From Alphaproteobacteria bacterium (GTDB lineage Bacteria > Pseudomonadota > Alphaproteobacteria > Rhizobiales > Devosiaceae): a stretch of 64,000 bases of DNA. The notes under the pieces were generated by a model. The model searched no databases. It saw only the letters and a program-made list of their open reading frames with translations, and was not told the origin of the DNA. Shown in pieces: positions 29,810 through 40,975 of the stretch (position 1 is its first letter; the number at the start of each line of letters is the position of its first letter). The stretch spans positions 1-64,000 of the forward strand of contig JAHJQZ010000074.1 in the NCBI GenBank assembly GCA_018818925.1, in the 5' to 3' direction. The translations under genes were made by a program, and so were the position numbers.

Positions 29810-29876
29810 GATCGCCAGAAGCGGGATCTCGATCCCCCTATTCGTCGCGTCGCAACGCCTGTCGGGGAGATGCCTG

Positions 29877-30725
29877 ATGGTCGAAAACCGTCCCTGGCTC
29901 AACATCTTCTCGCACATCGTTCTGATCCTCGGCGTGCTGACCGTCGCCTTTCCGGTCTATCTCGCCTTCATCGCCTCGACGCACGGGCCTGACGATTTCA
30001 TGTCCGGGGTCATGCCGGTCCTGCCCGGCCCGCACCTGATCGACAATTACTGGCAGATGCTCTCCCAGGGCGTGTCGACCTCCGGGGCGCCGCCGCTGTG
30101 GCGGATGATGTTCAATTCGCTGGTCATGGCGCTGATGATCGCCGTGGGCAAGATCGCCATCTCGATCCTTTCGGCCTTCGCCATGGTCTATTTCCGCTTT
30201 CCGCTGCGCGGCGTCGCCTTCTGGCTGATCTTCATCACGCTCATGCTGCCGGTCGAGGTCAGGATCATGCCGACCTTCAAGGTCGTCGCCGACCTGCACC
30301 TGCTCAATTCCTATGCCGGCCTGTCGATCCCGCTCATCGCCTCGGCGACGGCGACCTTCCTGTTCCGGCAGTTCTTCCTGACCGTACCCGACGAATTGAC
30401 CGAAGCCTCGCGCGTCGACGGGGCGACACCGATGATGTTCTTCCGCGATATTCTTCTGCCGCTGAGCCGGACCAATATCGCGGCCCTGTTCGTGATCCTG
30501 TTCATCTATGGCTGGAACCAGTATCTGTGGCCGCTGCTGATCACGACCGATCCCCAGTATTATACCGTCGTCATGGGCATCAAGCGCATGGCCGACGTCG
30601 CCGATGCCATACCGCAATGGAACGTGGTCATGGCGACGGTCATCCTCGCCATGCTGCCGCCGGTCGTGGTGGTGGTGGCGATGCAACGGCTCTTCGTCAA
30701 GGGCCTGGTCGAAACGGAGAAGTAA
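29877..30725 (+). CDS. ugpE: sn-Glycerol-3-phosphate ABC transporter, permease
   Basis: A 282-residue MalG-type permease with six membrane segments. The EAA loop is [23 protein letters not shown]. The C-terminus [16 protein letters not shown] is characteristic of UgpE. GGGGAGA lies upstream of the ATG at 29877. It pairs with UgpA to form the membrane pore and ends one base before the ATG of ugpC. Confidence 0.95.
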
Positions 30726-30726
30726 C

Positions 30727-31782
30727 ATGGCCGCTATCGAGCTCAGCGATGTGCGCAAGACATATCCCGGCGGCTTCGAGGCGGTCAAAGGGATCAGCCT
30801 GCCCATTCGCGACGGCGAATTCGTCGTCCTGGTCGGACCGTCGGGCTGCGGCAAATCGACCTTGCTGCGCATGATCGCCGGCCTCGAACGTATTACCTCC
30901 GGCACCGTCAAGATCGCCAATCGGGTGGTCAACAATCTCGAACCCATGCAGCGCGACATCGCCATGGTGTTCCAGAACTACGCGCTCTATCCGCATATGA
31001 CCGTGTTCCAGAACCTCGCCTATGGCCTCAAGAACCGCGGCATGGCCAAGTCCGAAATCGACATCCGTGTCGACGAGGTGGCGCGCATTCTCGAAATCGA
31101 GCCCTATCTCGCCCGCAAGCCGCGCGCCCTTTCCGGCGGCCAACGCCAGCGTGTCGCCATGGGCCGCGCCATCGTCCGGGAGCCGGCGGCCTTCCTGTTC
31201 GACGAGCCGCTCAGCAATCTCGACGCCAAGCTTCGCATCCAGATGCGCGGCGAGATCAAGCAATTGCAGAAGCGTCTCGGCACCACCTCGGTCTATGTCA
31301 CGCACGATCAGCTCGAGGCGATGACGCTGGCCGACCGGCTGGTTGTGCTCAACACTGGCGAAATCGAGCAGATCGGCACGCCGCTCGACATCTACCGCAG
31401 ACCGGCGACGACCTTTGTCGCCGCCTTCATCGGTTCGCCGGCGATGAATCTCGTGAAGGCGCACAGGCGCTCGGGAGCGGCCGTGTTCGGCGATGCGTCG
31501 CTGCCGATGGCCGATGACATCGCCAGCGGCATGGAGGTCACGGTCGGCGTCCGGCCCGAAGACCTGACGGTGGCGGGAACAAAAGACGCACTACGCCTGA
31601 CGCTCAAGATCGCCTATGTCGAGGAACTCGGAGCCACCCGACTCGTGCATGGAACGGTCGACGGGCAGAACCTGGTCGCGTCGGTTCCGGTGGACTGTCC
31701 GCTCGGCGAGACGCTCGAGGTGCATGCCGAGCCGTCGGCCCTGCATTTCTTCGATCCGCAGACCGGCAGGCGGCTGAACTAG
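30727..31782 (+). CDS. ugpC: sn-Glycerol-3-phosphate ABC transporter, ATP-binding protein
   Basis: A 351-residue MalK-type ATPase with [40 protein letters not shown] and the H-switch in VTHDQ. The C-terminal regulatory OB-like (TOBE) domain from about residue 240 contains [10 protein letters not shown] and ends [13 protein letters not shown]. The start [16 protein letters not shown] at 30727 sits just after the ugpE stop. It energises the UgpBAE importer. Relaxed MalK-like ATPases can serve more than one transporter, but position makes Ugp the clear partner. Confidence 0.95.
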
Positions 31783-31821
31783 ATAGCTTTCAGTTCAAAA
31801 GAAACGGGCGGCCTGGCACAG

Positions 31822-31850
31822 TTCACCTCTCCCTTGGGGGAGAGGTCGGG
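31822..31850. repeat. Solo copy of the CT/GA-rich hairpin
   Basis: ACCTCTCCC (31825-31833) pairs with GGGAGAGGT (31838-31846) with TTCA before it. The same terminal hairpin forms the ends of the two long palindromes at 47113-47248 and 50078-50215, so this is a short relative of that element. It lies 40 bp downstream of ugpC and may serve as its 3' hairpin. Confidence 0.7.
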
Positions 31851-31928
31851 CCGGTGGAGGCTCGCGATCGCCGTTTTGCACCGCAAAAGCGGCGCAAGGC
31901 CCTTGAGAAAGCCCCAGGGGCCTTGTCG

Positions 31929-32177
31929 TCAGTCGTGTTCGACCACCTCGGGCCCGACGCGTTCGGCGAGTCCGAAATCGTGCAGGGCGGCGGCAAGTTC
32001 CTCGTCCTGATCGGCCACTTCGATCATCAGCGCAAAGGCAGCCAAGGCGAGGTCCTTGGACTTGGCTTTCGGGTGCTGCTTGCGCAGATTCTTGAGAATC
32101 TCCTTGGGCTTGGTGCCGGATTGGACCTTGCTGGCGATCGCCGTCTTGAGCTGTTCGGTAAGTTTGTCTTCTGGCAT
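31929..32177 (-). CDS. Small hypothetical helical protein
   Basis: 82 residues from ATG 32177 (MPEDKLTEQLK), or up to 91 from an ATG nine codons earlier. It is highly charged and predicted helical (TAIASKVQSGTKPKEILKNLRKQHPKAKSKDLALAAFALMIEVADQDEELAAALHDF), soluble, without cysteines or membrane segments. I do not recognise a family. It is convergent with the ugp operon. Regular codon use and charged helix periodicity support a real gene, but no function can be given. Confidence 0.6.
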   Translation of the reverse strand: MPEDKLTEQLKTAIASKVQSGTKPKEILKNLRKQHPKAKSKDLALAAFALMIEVADQDEELAAALHDFGLAERVGPEVVEHD

Positions 32178-32358
32178 GTCAATTGCGCCTGCTCGTTGTA
32201 CCAATCGATACTAGTGTTTTCGACGGGACAAGGCCAGAGACCCAAGGCGCCAGCGCACCAAATTGGCGCGACGCTTGCCGCCCCGCGCCTGAGCAGCATA
32301 TCGCCGGCATGCATCGCCCGAACTCGCGCAAGCGCGACGCTTGCCGCCGGGAGCGGAG

Positions 32359-32958
32359 CTAGTTGTGGAACAGCGCGTCCGGCAGGCCGTATCGGTCCGT
32401 CCAGCTGTACCAGAACACATCCGTTGGCCCGACGACATGGTCGACCACCTGCCATCTGCCGCCGCGCCGGGCGAGCAGGACCATGACGATGTCGCTCATG
32501 GCGTCCGCCCGCCAGTCGGCGGCGAGCCTGGTCCTGGTCCAGTCGAGCGGGCGGCCATCGGGCTGGACCGGGGTAGCCTGCAGATAGGCCCATTGCCCAT
32601 CCGTCCGCAGCACCTGCACAACGAAGACGATCTGTTGTCCGATGTCGCGCACCACCGGAACGCGGGCTGCGTTCATGATGGCTTGCCGGTCGGCGCTGCC
32701 GCGGCCCGGCGTTACGTAGACGCCTGCGGCGGAAGCGGCAAGCAGGGCCGATGGCGCGACATCCGGCCCGCCTCGCGCATCGGGCGCGACAGCCTTTGCA
32801 AAGGAATCGAACACGGCGGCGCGGGCGGCAAAGGGCGGCAGGCCGGCCGAGACGACGACAAGAACGGCGAGCAGCAAAAGCAGCGAGAACAACGGCCTGG
32901 CAAGCCGTTTGCGGCGCATATGTGTGCGAATGCGCCCAATCGCGAGACTGGCGGGCAT
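32359..32958 (-). CDS. Hypothetical exported or membrane-anchored protein
   Basis: 199 residues. A basic N-terminus (RRKRLARP) precedes a hydrophobic segment of about 24 residues ending PFAARA, a signal peptide or anchor. The mature part has TDGQWAYLQATPVQPDGRPLDW and a C-terminal GGRWQVVDHVVGPTDVFWYSW, a pattern I associate with small uncharacterised alphaproteobacterial periplasmic proteins resembling SH3-like or DUF-type domains. An alternative start 13 codons downstream (ATG 32919) also leaves the signal intact. No operon partners; next to GH94 on the same strand but separated by 173 bp with a terminator. Confidence 0.65.
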   Translation of the reverse strand: MPASLAIGRIRTHMRRKRLARPLFSLLLLLAVLVVVSAGLPPFAARAAVFDSFAKAVAPDARGGPDVAPSALLAASAAGVYVTPGRGSADRQAIMNAARVPVVRDIGQQIVFVVQVLRTDGQWAYLQATPVQPDGRPLDWTRTRLAADWRADAMSDIVMVLLARRGGRWQVVDHVVGPTDVFWYSWTDRYGLPDALFHN

Positions 32959-33082
32959 GACTTCCTCCCCAGCCGACTACGACATCGGCAAGGCAGTACT
33001 TCCATGACTTGAATCAATTGAAACTTCTGAACCTTTCTGGTTGGGAAGCGTCAGGTCAGAACAGACCTCCGGCATGACAAGA

Positions 33083-33106
33083 GGCGCGGCACCTTTATGC
33101 CGCGCC
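33083..33106 (-). terminator. Terminator of the GH94 gene
   Basis: A perfect 9-bp stem, GGCGCGGCA with TGCCGCGCC, closes a 6-base loop (33083-33106), 26 bp after the GH94 stop on the minus strand, followed by TCTTGTC. The T-content of the tail is modest, so efficiency may be limited. Confidence 0.6.
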
Positions 33107-33131
33107 CCGATCGCGCCGGATGCGGATCCGG

Positions 33132-35579
33132 TCAGCCGATGACGGCCTCGACCTTGACCGCACTCCGCCCGACCGGCGCCGGTGGCACCAGGTTGCCGGC
33201 GATCCGCTTGCCGTCGACGGTGAGGCCGACAGCATTGCCGGGACCCATGCGCACCACGGAAATGTCGTAGGTGACGCCGCGGAAGATACGTTTGGCCGCA
33301 AAGCCCTGCCAGCGCTCGGGAATGACCGGGGCGATCCGCAAGCCGTCATATTCCGGCCTGATGCCGAAAATCCACTGGGTGACGGCATAGTAGTTCCAGG
33401 CCGCCGTGCCGGTCAGCCAGGAATTCTTGGCCTCGCCATGGGTCGGGGCGTCGCGCCCGGCGATCATCTGGGCGTAAACATAGGGCTCGCAACGATGGGT
33501 GTCGGAAATCTGTTCGCGCACCGAAGGATTGATGCGCGAATAATAGTCGAAGGCCCTGTCGCCGTCGCCGAGCATGGCTTCGGCGATGATCACCCACGGG
33601 TTGTTGTGGCAGAAGATGCCGGCGTTTTCCTTGTAGCCGGGCGGATAGGTCGAGATCTCGCCATATTCGATGTAGTAGCGGGTATAGGCCGGCTGCTGCA
33701 GCACGATGCCGTGCGGCGTCGCCAGATGCCTGGCGACGCTGTCGAGCGCCTTGCGCGCCTTGCCGTCGTCAAGGCCGATGCCGGCGAGGACGCAATAGCC
33801 CTGCGGCTCGATGAAGATCTTGCCTTCCTCGCAGTCCCTTGATCCGATCGGCTTGCCGAAATCGTCATAGGCGCGGCGGAACCATTCGCCATCCCAGCCG
33901 TGTTCCAGAACCGTCCTCTTCATGTCGGCGGCGATCCGCCGGTATTTGCCGGCGTCGTCGGTCCTGCCGGCCGCCGCTGCGATGCCGGCCAGTTCGTTGG
34001 AGGCATGGACCATCAGCGCGCCGATGAAGACGGATTCGGCGGTCTTGCCGTCGGTCTTGCCCTTAAGTGTCTGGAAGGACTGGCCCGGTTCGTCCGAGAA
34101 GCAGTTGAGATTGAGGCAATCGTTCCAGTCGGCCTGGCCGATCAATGGCAGGCCGTGCGGGCCGAGCCGGTCGAGCGCAAACTGGATCGAACGCTCAAGA
34201 TGGGCGTAGAGCGGCGCCTCGGTGCCCTCGAGATTGTTGAACACCACCTTTTCGTCGAGAATGGCGAAATCGCCGGTTTCCCGGAGATATTGCGCAACGC
34301 CGATGACCAGCCAATGCGGATCGTCGTTGAAGCCGCCGCCGACGGAATCGTTCCCCTTCTTGGTCAGGGGCTGGTACTGGTGGTAAGCGCCACCGCTTTC
34401 AAGCTGGGTGGCGGCAAGTTCGAGAATGCGCTGGCGGGCGCGCTCGGGCACCATGTGGACGAAGCCGAGCAGATCCTGGTTGGAGTCGCGGAAGCCGAGC
34501 CCTCGGCCGATGCCGGATTCGAATGTCGAGGCGGAGCGCGACATGTTGAAGGTCGCCATGCACTGATAGGCGTTCCAGACATTGACCATGCGGTCGGCAT
34601 GCTGGTCGGGCGAGGTGACCCGATAGACGCCGAGGAGCCTGTCCCAGTGCTCGGCAAGCCTGGCGAAGGCCGCTTCGACAGTCTTTTCATCGAGGTATCT
34701 GGCGATAAGCGGCCTGACCCGCTTCTTGTTGATCGTCTGCGAGTTCGGCGGGTCGAACTTGTCGTCCCTCGGGTTCTCGAAATAGCCGAGCACGAAGACG
34801 ATCTGCCGTGACTCGCCGGGCTGCAACCTGACCTTGACGTGGTGCGAGCCGATCGGCGACCAGCCATGAGCGATGGAATTGTCCGACCTGCCGGTCTCGA
34901 CGGCGCGCGGCCTGTCCCAGCCGCGCCAGGGCCCGAGGAAGTTTTCGCGCTGGGTGTCGAAACCTTCGAGCGCCTCGGAACAGGCGAAATAGGCGAAATG
35001 GTCGCGACGCTCGCGGTATTCGGTCTTGTGGTAGATCGTGCTGGCCTCGACCTCGACCTGGCCGGTCGAGTAGTTGCGCTGGAAGTTGGTCATGTCGTCA
35101 TTGGCTTCCCACAGGCAGAATTCCACCGAGGAAAACACCGAGATATCGGCCTCGACCAGGCGCTCGTTGGTCACCGTGAGCTGCCAGATTTCGAGAGTCT
35201 CGCCGAGCGGCACGAAATAGCGGGTCGAGGAGGCGATACCGTCCTTTTTGGCCGAGATCGTCGAATAGCCCATGCCGTGCCGGCATTCGTAGGCATCGAG
35301 GTCGGATTGCGTCGGCATCCAGGACGGTGACCAGTATTCGGTCGTCTCGTTGTCGCGCAAATAGATGTAGCGGCCGCCGAAATCCATCGGCACGTTGTTG
35401 TAGCGGCCGCGGGTCAGCCGGCGCATGCGCGCGTCGCGGTAATAGGAATAGCCGCCGCCGGTGGCGCTGAGGATGCCAAAATAATCCTCGCAGCCGATAT
35501 AGTTGATCCAGGGCAAGGGCGTGTCCGGTCGCGTGATGACGTATTCACGGGCGCTGTCGTCGAAATGGCCGTATTTCAT
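33132..35579 (-). CDS. GH94 cellobiose phosphorylase-like enzyme
   Basis: 815 residues, the usual length for single-domain-set GH94 phosphorylases that convert a beta-1,4-glucobiose plus phosphate into alpha-glucose-1-phosphate and glucose. The N-terminal beta-sandwich begins MKYGHFDDSAREYVITRPDTPLPWINYIG. The (alpha/alpha)6 barrel has GQADWNDCLN with the probable general acid D487, and phosphate-site sequences around GYKENAGIFCHNNPW. The start at 35579 is favoured by AGGA five bases upstream and by matching the family N-terminus; the ATG 5 codons earlier lacks such a site. No signal peptide, so cytoplasmic. Cellodextrin or other beta-glucan disaccharides are possible substrates. A LacI-type operator lies upstream. 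Confidence 0.9.
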   Translation of the reverse strand: MKYGHFDDSAREYVITRPDTPLPWINYIGCEDYFGILSATGGGYSYYRDARMRRLTRGRYNNVPMDFGGRYIYLRDNETTEYWSPSWMPTQSDLDAYECRHGMGYSTISAKKDGIASSTRYFVPLGETLEIWQLTVTNERLVEADISVFSSVEFCLWEANDDMTNFQRNYSTGQVEVEASTIYHKTEYRERRDHFAYFACSEALEGFDTQRENFLGPWRGWDRPRAVETGRSDNSIAHGWSPIGSHHVKVRLQPGESRQIVFVLGYFENPRDDKFDPPNSQTINKKRVRPLIARYLDEKTVEAAFARLAEHWDRLLGVYRVTSPDQHADRMVNVWNAYQCMATFNMSRSASTFESGIGRGLGFRDSNQDLLGFVHMVPERARQRILELAATQLESGGAYHQYQPLTKKGNDSVGGGFNDDPHWLVIGVAQYLRETGDFAILDEKVVFNNLEGTEAPLYAHLERSIQFALDRLGPHGLPLIGQADWNDCLNLNCFSDEPGQSFQTLKGKTDGKTAESVFIGALMVHASNELAGIAAAAGRTDDAGKYRRIAADMKRTVLEHGWDGEWFRRAYDDFGKPIGSRDCEEGKIFIEPQGYCVLAGIGLDDGKARKALDSVARHLATPHGIVLQQPAYTRYYIEYGEISTYPPGYKENAGIFCHNNPWVIIAEAMLGDGDRAFDYYSRINPSVREQISDTHRCEPYVYAQMIAGRDAPTHGEAKNSWLTGTAAWNYYAVTQWIFGIRPEYDGLRIAPVIPERWQGFAAKRIFRGVTYDISVVRMGPGNAVGLTVDGKRIAGNLVPPAPVGRSAVKVEAVIG

Positions 35580-36165
35580 GGCGTTCCTGTTCATGTCGTT
35601 CGCCGGTTCGTCGAGAACGCTCCGGCCTGCCGAGGCGAGACTGTGCCTTTGCGACCCGAATGGGCCGACACGACGCCCCGCGTCGCACATCTCGCATTTA
35701 AAAAGTGCCTCTCCCGAACCTCTCCACTCCCGGATTGCGTGCGCCTTTTTCGGCGACCTTCAACCGGGGATTCCGTCCCGACGCCCGCCGGCGCCAATTG
35801 GCGCGGAACGGGCGTCGCGACCGCAAATCGCTGGCAGCTTACACGCGATGTAATCGATTTCAAGCTCGGAACGCGAATGAATGCCCGGCACGCATGTCCT
35901 GCCAATGCCCGGCCTGAACTTTCGCATCCGGACACCGGCACGGGCGATTGCGGAACGCAAGCGTATGAGATGAACGAATTAGGAAGGATTAACTATAGAT
36001 TCATGAAACAAATACAAATGTCCGCAATTGTCGGTAGCGATGCATCCACTGCGAATTTGTCTCAAATATTACGTGTTTTTCTGCAACATATAATTAAGTT
36101 CGAACGCGCAGGCTCTGCATCAGTTCTTATGGAACGCTGCCCCGTACCTTTGGAAGCGTTGGCAA
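35580..36165. other. Divergent promoter region between GH94 and the histidine kinase
   Basis: 586 bases with no supported gene. The part nearest GH94 holds the LacI-type site at 35849-35862, overlapped on the minus strand by a possible -35 TTGAAA with a TAAGCT-like -10 downstream. The part nearest the kinase (about 35960-36125) is strikingly AT-rich compared with its surroundings and probably contains the kinase promoter. Confidence 0.5.
35849..35862 (-). promoter_or_regulatory. LacI-family operator upstream of GH94
   Basis: TGTAATCGATTTCA fits the LacI/CcpA-type consensus TGWAANCGNTTWCA at every defined position, with an 8-bp perfect core AATCGATT and central CG at 35855-35856. It is 270 bp upstream of the GH94 start and overlaps a possible minus-strand -35 box. 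No LacI-family gene lies in the window. Confidence 0.7.
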
Positions 36166-38739
36166 ATGGCCGGCAAAAAGACTCAACCGCAAAACCAATC
36201 GCAGGTCGAAGCCAAATCGCCGGCAAAGGCTTTGACGCTGCCACGTTCGCGCCGGGACGCGGCGTCGAAACGGCCGCAGGCGAAGACACCTGCGCCGCCG
36301 ATGCCTGCCATGGCGCGCGATGGCGGCACGGCCATCGACCATGCGAATTCTGCCGAGGTCCTGTCCGAGCTTCCCATCGGCCTTGCCCTGATCAGCGCGG
36401 ATGACAGGCTGGTCTTTGCCAATCCCCATTTCAGCGAAGTGTTCGATGCCGATCCGGCGCTGATCGCTCCGGGCCGGTCGGTGGACGATCTCATCCGTCT
36501 CATGGCTGACGACGATATCTTCGACGACGCCTCGCAAATCGCCGCGATGCGCGACAAGGTGCAAAACCTCAAGCCCGGCGAAATACTCGAGAGCACCATT
36601 CAGCTGCAATCCGGCCAGCGCATCGGCCAGAAGATCAAGAAATTGTCCAATGGCAGCTGGTTGGCTGTCCTTACCGACCTGACCGCCGTCATGGAAGCCG
36701 AGGCACAGGCACGGGAAGCGGAAAATCGCTGGAGTTTCGCCCTTGAAAGCGCCCGACAAGGCGTCTGGGACAGCGATCTCAGGACCGGGACGGTATTTTA
36801 TTCCCATATGTGGCGCGTCATTCGCGGCCTCGAACAGGTTGACGAACACGAGCTGACGCCGGAAGCCTGGCGCGGTCGCTTGCATCCTGAGGATAGCGAG
36901 CGCGTGCTCGATACCATCGCGCGCCAGGACAATGGCGAGACTTTCGCAAACGGCATCGAATACCGGGAACGCCATCGCGACGGTCACTGGATATGGATCC
37001 TGTGCCGGGGTCAGGCCGTCGCATGGGACGCGAACGGCAAGCCGACGCGCATCATCGGCACCGATTCCGACATCACCGAGATGCGCAACGCCCAGGCCGC
37101 CCTGTCGGAAGCCGAAGGGCGCTGGAACTTCGCCCTGCAGGGCACCGGGCAAGGCGTGTGGGACGCCGACCTGCGGGAGGGGACGGTGTTCTATTCGCCG
37201 ACCTGGCGGGACATGCGCGGCTTCGGACATGATGAGGACATCGACAGCAGCGCCGACACCTGGCTGGAGCGTGTCCATCCAGGCGACCGCGACAGGATTC
37301 GCGACACTATCGGGAAACTGGATCGCGGCGCGCTCCTGCACAATTCTTTCGAATACCGGGAACGGCACCGCGACGGCCATTACCTGTGGATTCAAAGCCG
37401 TGGCGAGCCGGTCGCGTGGGACGCGTCGGGCCGTCCGACCCGGATGATCGGCATCGACATCGACATCACGGTGCGCAAGGAGCTCGAGCTCCGGGTCAGG
37501 GAAAGCCTGCAACTGGTCAACACCATGCTCGACAACTTCCCCGGCGGCATCTGCATGATCGACAAGCACCTCGTTATGCGCGCCGCCAACAGCATCTACT
37601 ACGAAATCAATGACCTCGATGAGCACTGGTTCCCCGTCGGGTCGAAATTCGAGGACATCCTGCGCCATCACGCCGTACGCGGCGATTTCGGTCCGGTCGA
37701 TGTCGAGGCGTTTGTCGCCGAGCGCATTCAGCTGTCGCATTACAGCCAGCCGCGCCGTTTCTCCCTGCCGCGTCCGACCACCGGGGCGATGATCGAATAC
37801 ACGATCACGCCGCTTGCCGAGGGCGGCTTCGTGATGACGTTCCAGGACATTTCGGAGCGCATCAAGGCCGAGGAAGAGAAATCGCAACTCGAAAAGGAGC
37901 TCATTCAGGCGCAGCGCCTCGAGTCGCTCGGCACGCTGGCCAGCGGCATCGCCCACGAGATCAACACCCCCATTCAATATGTCGGGGACAATATTCGCTT
38001 CATCGCCCAGAGCCTTCGCGACATGCTGGCGGTGCTGCAGGGCTACCGAAAGTCTATGCGCCGGCCGATCGACCCCGGCCTGATCGCCGAACAGGCCGAA
38101 GCACTGGCGGAACTCGAGAAGAGCCTCGATCTCGGCTTCATTCTCGAGGAATTGCCGCTGGCGCTCGAACAATCGGCGCAGGGTGTCAAACAGGTTGCCA
38201 CCATCGTCAAGGCGATCAAGGAATTCTCGCATCCTGGCCAGGACGAGAAGACCGAATTCGACATCAACGCGCTGATCGAGACGACGCTCATCGTGTCGCG
38301 GAACCAGTGGAAATATGTCGCCGAGGTCGAAACCGACCTCGATCCGTCGCTGCCGCCGTTCAGGTGCCTACCCGGCGAGCTCGGCCAAGCGCTGCTGAAC
38401 CTCGTGGTCAACGCCGCGCATGCCATCGAATCGGCCGGGCGGGAAAACGGATTGATCCGCGTCACCACCCGGCATGTCGGCCGTCGCGCCGTCATCACGA
38501 TCTCGGACAATGGCTGCGGTATGTCTGAAGCGATCAGGGCGCGCATCTACGACCCGTTCTTCACCACCAAGGACATCGGCAAGGGCACCGGCCAGGGCCT
38601 GACCATTGCCTTCAACGCGGTGGTCAAGAAACACGGCGGCACGATCGATTGCGACTCGGCCGAGGGCGCAGGCACGACCTTCACCATGGCACTGCCGATG
38701 GACAAGGAGACAGAAATCGGTTCGGAGATTGCGGCATGA
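36166..38739 (+). CDS. Soluble multi-PAS sensor histidine kinase
   Basis: 857 residues, no membrane segment or signal peptide. After a basic, low-complexity N-terminus (1-60) come four PAS domains: about 62-175, 185-310, 318-440 and 455-575. PAS-B and PAS-C are near duplicates sharing RHRDGH, VAWDA and FEYRERH-type segments and look like PAS_3 folds. The HisKA helix has GIAHEINTP with phospho-accepting H597. The ATPase domain has the N-box [10 protein letters not shown] (N745, N749), DNGCGM (D781) and [14 protein letters not shown] precedes the ATG at 36166. Its stop overlaps the next gene by 4 bases. It should sense a cytoplasmic signal and phosphorylate one or both response regulators downstream. 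Confidence 0.92.
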
Positions 38740-39743
38740 CCAAACCGTCAATCGTGTTCGTCGACGACGAGCCCAATCTCCTGTCGGGCCTGAGACGGCT
38801 GACACGCGGCCACGCCGACAAATGGGACATGGCATTTCTTGCTTCCGCCGAGGAGGCGCTCAAGTTCCTGGCGCAGGCGCCGGTGCATCTGTTGATTTCC
38901 GACATGCGCATGCCCGGCATGGATGGCGCCGAGCTGATGGAAAAGATTTCGGAGACATCACCGGGAATCGTCTGCTTTGCCCTTTCGGGCGAGACCGACG
39001 CGCAGCGGGCGATCCGCGTCGTCGGCAAGAGCCACCGGTTTCTGGCAAAGCCCATCGATCCCGACACGTTGCTGAATTCGATCGACACGCTCTTCGCCAG
39101 CGGCGGCGTCTCTCTCGAAGAAAACCGCAAGCGCAACACATCGGTGTTCGACATTCTCAAATCCGCGCCCGGACGGCTTCATGCACTTGAAACCCTGCTG
39201 GCACGGCCCGAACCGGACGGCATCGCGATCAATGCGCAGATCATGGCGGACCCGAGTCTGTCGACAAGAGTGCTGCAAATCGCGAATTCGGCTTATTTCG
39301 GCAAGCCGCTCGCGACCTGCAACCTGCCGCGCGCCATCAGTTCCATCGGGCTGGCGCGCCTGACCCAGTTGCTGGCGAGGGGGCGGCTCGGCACGGAACA
39401 GGCACAGGCCGAGGGCGCCGCCGACGCGTACAGGCTGCACGCCATGGCGGCGGTCATGGCTCGCGAACAGGCCGAGGCAACCAACAAGAGCGCCGAACTG
39501 CAGGATCTCGCCTATGCCATCGCGCTTTTGTGCGGCATCGGCGCGGGCGTCGACGACGGCGGCCAAACCTGCCTGTCGCGACCGGGTTGCATCGCCACCG
39601 TTTTCGGCCTGCCCCAGGTGCTCGCGCACGGCCTGTCACGCTACGACGGCGGCGGCTGCACCAATATGGACGAAGTCGAAATGGCCGCCAGCGCGCTCGC
39701 GATCGCGGCCGAGGTCCTTGTCGAGGCAAAGGTGGCGGCATGA
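38736..39743 (+). CDS. Response regulator with HDOD output domain
   Basis: 335 residues. The receiver domain (about 1-120) has the acidic pair D10-D11, phospho-acceptor D56 in [12 protein letters not shown], a serine in ALSGET and the lysine in LAKPID. The remainder resembles an HDOD domain: [25 protein letters not shown] and [24 protein letters not shown] lacks the catalytic HD pair and usually acts as a protein-interaction or signalling module. The gene overlaps the kinase stop (ATGA) and the next response regulator start (ATGA), so all three are co-translated. No DNA-binding domain is visible, so output is not direct transcription. Confidence 0.9.
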
Positions 39744-40918
39744 ACGAGGCGACACCGATGACATCGCGCGTGCTTTTCGTCGACGACAGCCAGCACCTGC
39801 TCAGCGCCGTGCGCCGCATGCTGCGCGGCCGGGCCGATCTGGTTTTAACCGAAAGCGCCCAGGAGGCGATCAAGCGCCTCGAAACCGATCCCGGCATTTC
39901 CGTGGTCATCACCGACCAGAACATGCCCGGCATGAAGGGCATCGAGTTCCTCGCGACCGTGGCCGAGCGCTGGCCGCTGGTGACGCGGGTCATGCAGACC
40001 GGCAACAACGATCAGGACACGGCTATTTCGGCCATTCACGCCGGCCGCGTCTTCCGCTTCCTGCGCAAGCCCTACGAGCCCGCCGATCTGCTCGACGTCA
40101 TAAGGGACGCCCAGGCCGAGCACGAGATCCGCAAGGCCGAGCGTATCCTGCTCGAAACGACGCTCGCCTCGTCAATCAAGCTCGTGACCGAGATGCTGTC
40201 GCTCATGCGGCCGGAACTGTTCGCCCAGTCGGCCCAGGTCAACGAACTGGTCAGGGCGCTGGCGCCGAAGCTGAAGTTGGCCCAGCCCTGGGAACCGGGC
40301 CTTGCCGCCCTGCTCTATCCGCTCGGCCTGGCGACGCTGCCCCGGGAACTCCTGGAAAAGCGCCGGCTTGGCGTGCGGCTCAACGAGGCGGAAAGCTTCG
40401 CGATCGCGCAAAGCGGCGTCGTTGCCGGGCAATTGGTCGCCAAGATTCCCAAGCTCGAACGTGTCGCGATCTATTTGCGCTATTCCCGCAAGGGGCATGA
40501 CGGATCGGGGCTTCCCGAGGGCGAGATCGATCCGGGCATCCCGCCCGTCGCCCTTTTCCTGCTGCCGCTCTTGATCGACATCGTCGAACTGGCCGACATC
40601 CGCGACATCAGCCTCGGCGACGCCGCGGCGGCGCTCTACGACAATTCCGAGCGCTACCATCCAAGCCTGTTGGCGAGTGTCGGCGATTTCCTGACCACGA
40701 GCACCGACTACAACGGCGCTCATGAACGGATCGCCCGCGAGATGGCGATCGGCGAAATCCGGGTCGGCGACGTGCTCGTCAACGATCTGCGCAGCGAAAC
40801 CGGCGATCTGCTGCTGACCGGCGGCACCAGGCTGACCGATCTGACAATAAAGCGATTGCACATGCTGCAGGCCAGCCGGGCGATCCCCACCATTCTGGCC
40901 GTGGCGCGCAAGGCCTGA
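39740..40918 (+). CDS. Response regulator with degenerate HD-GYP-like domain
   Basis: 392 residues. The receiver domain has D15-D16, acceptor D59 in VITDQNMPGMKG and lysine in LRKPYE. A coiled linker (AEHEIRKAERILLETTLASS) leads to a domain laid out like RpfG HD-GYP: LLYPLGLATLP aligns with the usual LLHDIGKIGIP, so HD is replaced by Y193-P194, and the GYP motif appears as GHDGSGLP (G257-L258-P259). The c-di-GMP phosphodiesterase centre is therefore probably inactive. The last 80 residues (IGEIRVGDVLVNDLRSETGDLLLTGG) form an extra C-terminal extension. A regulatory role in the cassette with the kinase and HDOD protein is inferred. Confidence 0.88.
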   Translation: MNEATPMTSRVLFVDDSQHLLSAVRRMLRGRADLVLTESAQEAIKRLETDPGISVVITDQNMPGMKGIEFLATVAERWPLVTRVMQTGNNDQDTAISAIHAGRVFRFLRKPYEPADLLDVIRDAQAEHEIRKAERILLETTLASSIKLVTEMLSLMRPELFAQSAQVNELVRALAPKLKLAQPWEPGLAALLYPLGLATLPRELLEKRRLGVRLNEAESFAIAQSGVVAGQLVAKIPKLERVAIYLRYSRKGHDGSGLPEGEIDPGIPPVALFLLPLLIDIVELADIRDISLGDAAAALYDNSERYHPSLLASVGDFLTTSTDYNGAHERIAREMAIGEIRVGDVLVNDLRSETGDLLLTGGTRLTDLTIKRLHMLQASRAIPTILAVARKA

Positions 40919-40941: not shown

Positions 40942-40975
40942 AAAAAACCCGCCCCGAAACCGGGGCGGGCTCGTT
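40942..40975. terminator. Bidirectional terminator
   Basis: CCCGCCCCG (40948-40956) pairs perfectly with CGGGGCGGG (40961-40969) around AAAC. On the minus strand six T residues follow, making a strong terminator for the KDPG aldolase gene; on the plus strand CTCGTTT follows, a weaker one for the response-regulator operon. Confidence 0.88.

Follow-up and report, generated by a model that had tools for sequence, protein, structure and literature searches.

Gene content of the cassette

The window (the whole stretch of DNA analysed, 64,000 nucleotides) carries a three-gene signalling cassette encoding a PAS-rich histidine kinase, a response regulator with an HDOD domain (REC-HDOD) and a response regulator with a dead HD-GYP-like domain (REC-dead-HD). 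The cassette and its features are listed in Table 1. The first-pass annotation, made from the sequence alone, had described a three-gene unit with ATGA at both junctions, and the ORF coordinates bear this out. The flanking genes both lie on the opposite strand, with a GH94 phosphorylase preceding the cassette and a KDPG-aldolase-like gene following it, so the cassette looks self-contained. For the hairpin downstream of the cassette the T-run was scored on the minus strand, and the count of such sites was not above that in shuffles. The region upstream of the cassette (29838–35690) contained sugar-type ABC transporter genes (permease 29877–30725, ATPase from 30721) and the GH94 phosphorylase, which suggests a beta-glucoside uptake region.

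Table 1 Features of the cassette, with positions in the window unless given as residues.
Feature	Position	Strand	Basis
Soluble (probable) PAS-rich histidine kinase, 857 aa	36166..38739	+	ORF, Pfam, hydropathy
Kinase, PAS_8-like domain	residues 67–110		
Kinase, PAS_3 copies	best, residues 341–430		
Kinase, PAS_7 domain	residues 455–570		
Kinase, HATPase domain	residues 738–846		
ATGA stop-start overlap, kinase / REC-HDOD genes	38736..38739	+	sequence
REC (D56) + short HDOD response regulator, 335 aa	38736..39743	+	ORF, Pfam
ATGA stop-start overlap, REC-HDOD / REC-dead-HD genes	39740..39743	+	sequence
REC (D59) + catalytically dead HD-GYP-like (HD_5) + small strand-bearing C-terminal region, 392 aa	39740..40918	+	
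Terminator-like hairpin (12 pairs) in the gap between cassette and convergent KDPG-aldolase-like gene	40945..40972	.	weak

The kinase matched the Pfam models PAS_7, PAS_3 and HATPase_c. It has a HisKA-like segment with the phosphoacceptor H597 in the motif HEINT, an N box at 745 and a HATPase match of 79 bits, the features of a two-component histidine kinase. The maximum of the 19-residue Kyte-Doolittle profile was 1.13 and no hydrophobic helix was found, which argues that the kinase is probably soluble. The earlier label of soluble PAS kinase thus holds for the PAS domains, and with that grade for the solubility. The catalytic core was 43–51% identical to that of kinases from H-NOX operons. 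Closely matching cores were rare in the class (9/385 sampled genomes, E up to 1e-50).

The second protein matched Response_reg and HDOD (PF08668, 53.5 bits against a cut-off of 22.9), and was the only HDOD match in its genome. Its HDOD domain is shortened, as are those of the nearest copies from H-NOX operons. The phosphoacceptors proposed for the two regulators were found where expected, D56 in SDMRMP and D59 in TDQNMP, and H597 was likewise confirmed. No DNA-binding Pfam model matched in either regulator, in agreement with the first reading of both as lacking such a domain.

The third protein matched Response_reg and HD_5 (68.9 bits). As noted from the sequence before, Y193-P194 occupies the expected HD site and GLP (257–259) replaces GYP; the HHE ligands are also replaced. 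None of the 36 aligned relatives had the HD dyad, so the inactivity is a family trait rather than decay of the window protein. By its residues, the protein belongs to an inactive family and is not a decayed enzyme, and the earlier claim that it is no ordinary c-di-GMP phosphodiesterase stands. The alphaproteobacterial subfamily kept a DGSGxP remnant of GYP and has no HHE ligands, while a sister subfamily has largely lost the GYP segment. By sequence profile, the HD part matched two solved chains: 5z7c, which is a cGAMP phosphodiesterase of the HD-GYP type, and 9rc0. A PDB sequence search with the dead-HD domain alone gave no match, and in fold searches with models of the full-length regulators the match lists were filled by the receiver domain. 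In a plasmid search, the matches listed covered only the receiver half, none of those listed covering 80% of the query.

Conservation of the triplet

In a search among 120 relatives, only three genomes had a relative of the third protein at near full length; the class sample gave 7/385 genomes, own included (alignment search, E up to 1e-25). Six of these seven also carried the closely matching kinase core. In the Pseudomonadota sample, 21/398 genomes had a strong relative (E below 1e-70). Reading of the neighbourhoods placed histidine kinase, REC-HDOD and REC-dead-HD together in 16 of these 21, own included; in one of the 16 (G163) the kinase is encoded on the opposite strand at a distance of about 2.5 kb. 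The overlapping stop-start junctions recur as well (L062, L144, L227, L232, L233 and L234). The triplet for which a search in other genomes had been proposed is therefore present beyond the window, and its arrangement is not a matter of chance.

Variants of the arrangement were also seen. Two tandem REC-HDOD regulators precede the dead-HD regulator and the kinase in L228 (5006–7584). In three loci (L142, 2786–3811; L143, 7866–8873; L145, 6310–7395) the partner of the dead-HD regulator was not an HDOD protein and had a LuxR-type HTH-like tail (HnoC-like by eye, no Pfam match).

Relationship to H-NOX operons

L062 (Kordiimonas laminariae), L174 and L227 each have a gene for H-NOX, a nitric-oxide sensor, followed in order by histidine kinase, REC-HDOD and REC-dead-HD. 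G114 has H-NOX, kinase and REC-HDOD in this order, with the dead-HD regulator elsewhere. G109 has H-NOX, kinase, REC-dead-HD and a further regulator with a LuxR-type HTH-like tail (by eye, not confirmed by Pfam).

In the concatenated tree, the window triplet grouped with three H-NOX sets (support 100/99) and was sister to the H-NOX set of G114 (100/98); the G114 row combines the kinase and HDOD regulator with a dead-HD regulator encoded on a different contig. The tree was rooted at its midpoint, and the window sits on a long branch (1.62). Grouping of the window with alphaproteobacterial triplets that have no H-NOX was rejected (p-AU 1.2e-5, concatenated tree). The HDOD tree also placed the window protein as sister to REC-HDOD of the G114 H-NOX operon (99/97). 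In the dead-HD tree, the window sequence stood next to proteins with a coil and a dead-HD domain from its own family and related ones, and some of these proteins adjoin H-NOX (86/86). The kinase-only tree recovered the H-NOX grouping at 94/91 with all rows, and was unresolved after the long rows were dropped. Window rows had long branches in the single-gene trees as well. Judged by these trees, all three cassette proteins group with proteins of H-NOX operons, and the module is assigned to an H-NOX/NO signalling lineage.

In several loci (L148, 3940–5381; L149, 4624–6065; also L008, L011 and L014) H-NOX is followed directly by a protein with a coil and a dead HD-GYP domain, and no kinase or receiver is present. 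Such pairs are possibly direct NO-controlled dead-HD switches.

Proposed replacement of the sensor

No HNOB match was found in the window genome, and no FIST (NosP) match either; the assembly has 177 contigs and is about 96% complete, which leaves some chance that an H-NOX gene was missed. In the window's family, H-NOX was found in 3/136 genomes, all of one genus. All five H-NOX-linked kinases (four independent, two being near-identical) had the N-terminal coil ARxxAExxxExKSxEL, and none of the 27 others, window included; the window kinase has PAS domains instead of this coil. The trees and these absences are most simply read as a module that originated alongside H-NOX and then lost this input, with PAS now in its place. 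The cassette has the look of a familiar type of switch that has been coupled to a new signal.

We also considered the coil as a strict marker of H-NOX. Among dead-HD proteins it fails, because the motif was matched in L146 and L147, where no H-NOX was found in the locus. L150 has a dead-HD protein of the same kind, again with no H-NOX found in the locus; all three are same-family genomes, and only three other genomes of that family gave an HNOB match.

Proposed function

HnoD, a regulator with a receiver and a degenerate HD-GYP domain, has no phosphodiesterase activity; through contact it suppresses HnoB, an EAL enzyme, and the kinases relieve this effect (PMC6335343). We lean towards a phospho-switch of the HnoK/HnoD type, in which PAS replaces the H-NOX input and the two dead outputs act by contact on c-di-GMP enzymes. 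A cytoplasmic signal sensed by PAS would set the balance of kinase and phosphatase activity at H597. Its motif HEINT fits the H-E-x-x-T pattern, and bifunctionality is likely in kinases that carry H-E-x-x-T/N (PMC12570481). Phosphoryl groups would pass from H597 to D56 and D59. Both dead HD-superfamily outputs would then bind and inhibit, or release, phosphodiesterases or cyclases of c-di-GMP encoded elsewhere, as HnoD does with HnoB. The genome gave 12 EAL and 20 GGDEF matches, the EAL matches lying on other contigs. Given these matches and the HnoD parallel, contact control of a c-di-GMP enzyme appears the most likely output of the cassette.

The same phospho-switch could instead direct the dead HD outputs to targets unrelated to c-di-GMP, e.g., transcription, motility or another enzyme complex. 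There is no EAL or GGDEF gene in the cassette and no c-di-GMP enzyme among the neighbours tested, and GsmR, an HDOD regulator of Xanthomonas, affects motility gene expression without phosphatase or phosphodiesterase activity (PMC4114195), all of which fits such targets. We regard them as somewhat unlikely, since c-di-GMP is the main route of action in the H-NOX and NosP pathways examined to date (PMC8738867, PMC8846402) and the genome has many c-di-GMP enzymes.

A wider proposal, which we hold with some doubt and think rather unlikely, is that HDOD and dead HD-GYP form a widespread two-output module in which evolution exchanges the sensors (H-NOX, PAS and others) and both dead regulators bind each other under the control of phosphorylation.

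Dead domains serving as c-di-GMP receptors, with the HDOD/dead-HD pair reading phosphorylation and ligand together, seem improbable. HDOD proteins are described as non-catalytic, and SadB, which has an HDOD and also a YbaK-like domain, binds c-di-GMP with a Kd of 0.23 uM (PMC6543031); the DGSGxP remnant in the alphaproteobacterial subfamily would also suit a receptor. However, the family has lost the metal ligands of HD and HHE, and in the sister subfamily the GYP segment is largely gone too, so conservation of ligand binding is not evident.

The long branches of the window rows might point to a decaying, functionless cassette, but this is very improbable: the three frames are intact with their overlaps, the kinase and receiver residues are kept, and the dead centre is common to intact relatives in many genomes. 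An active, unusual phosphodiesterase as third protein, to which the HD_5 match could point, is barely credible and was rejected on the residues (YP for HD, HHE replaced, relatives alike), as HD-GYP proteins of V. cholerae that lack an intact HD, among them VC1087, are inactive in vivo and in vitro (PMC4212101).

In preferring the HnoK/HnoD-type switch, we keep from the first-pass annotation the three-gene unit, the lack of a DNA-binding domain, the dead HD-GYP centre and the conservation of the triplet; the H-NOX/NO lineage and the known precedent for a phosphodiesterase inhibitor (HnoD, with NosR as a relative) had been overlooked there.

Comparison with known systems

With RpfG-type phosphodiesterases the third protein shares the order of a receiver followed by an HD-GYP-like domain, but it has neither the catalytic HD nor the HHE ligands. 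Regulators like GsmR have the same combination of a receiver and HDOD, a non-catalytic relative of HD; the window HDOD differs in being shortened and tied to a dead-HD partner.

Neither the pairing of HDOD and dead HD in a conserved module nor the exchange of the sensor appears to have been described. In the literature searched, which most subscription papers fall outside, we found no description of the module or of sensor replacement, and no paper treating HDOD together with H-NOX. The cassette would be a natural case of sensor replacement, in which a NO circuit kept the kinase core and both regulators and the input appears changed. The dead HD-GYP regulator, known from few NO pathways, is a broad family that travels with a REC-HDOD partner, and the role of the HDOD regulator thus becomes testable through a defined partner and kinase.

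For the third protein, the best named model was NosR of the Burkholderia system NosP-NosK-NosR (NF053512), at 186 bits and thus below the curated cut-off of 400. The HD-GYP domain of NosR, which is phosphorylated by NosK, is degenerate too (HG-GTP; PMC12570481). In contrast to the window, that system has no HDOD regulator, and the window genome lacks its FIST/NosP sensor.

HnoX-HnoK-HnoD, with HnoB and HnoC (Shewanella oneidensis, Vibrio cholerae), likewise combines a soluble kinase with a regulator of receiver and degenerate HD-GYP domain, the likeness to HnoD being one to its published description and not to its sequence. Adjacency to H-NOX, as in that system, is found in relatives of the cassette. 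A dead HD-GYP regulator as phosphodiesterase inhibitor is therefore already known from HnoD. The window cassette differs in that H-NOX, the EAL regulator HnoB and the DNA-binding HnoC are all absent from it; a REC-HDOD regulator is present instead, and the kinase has several PAS domains.
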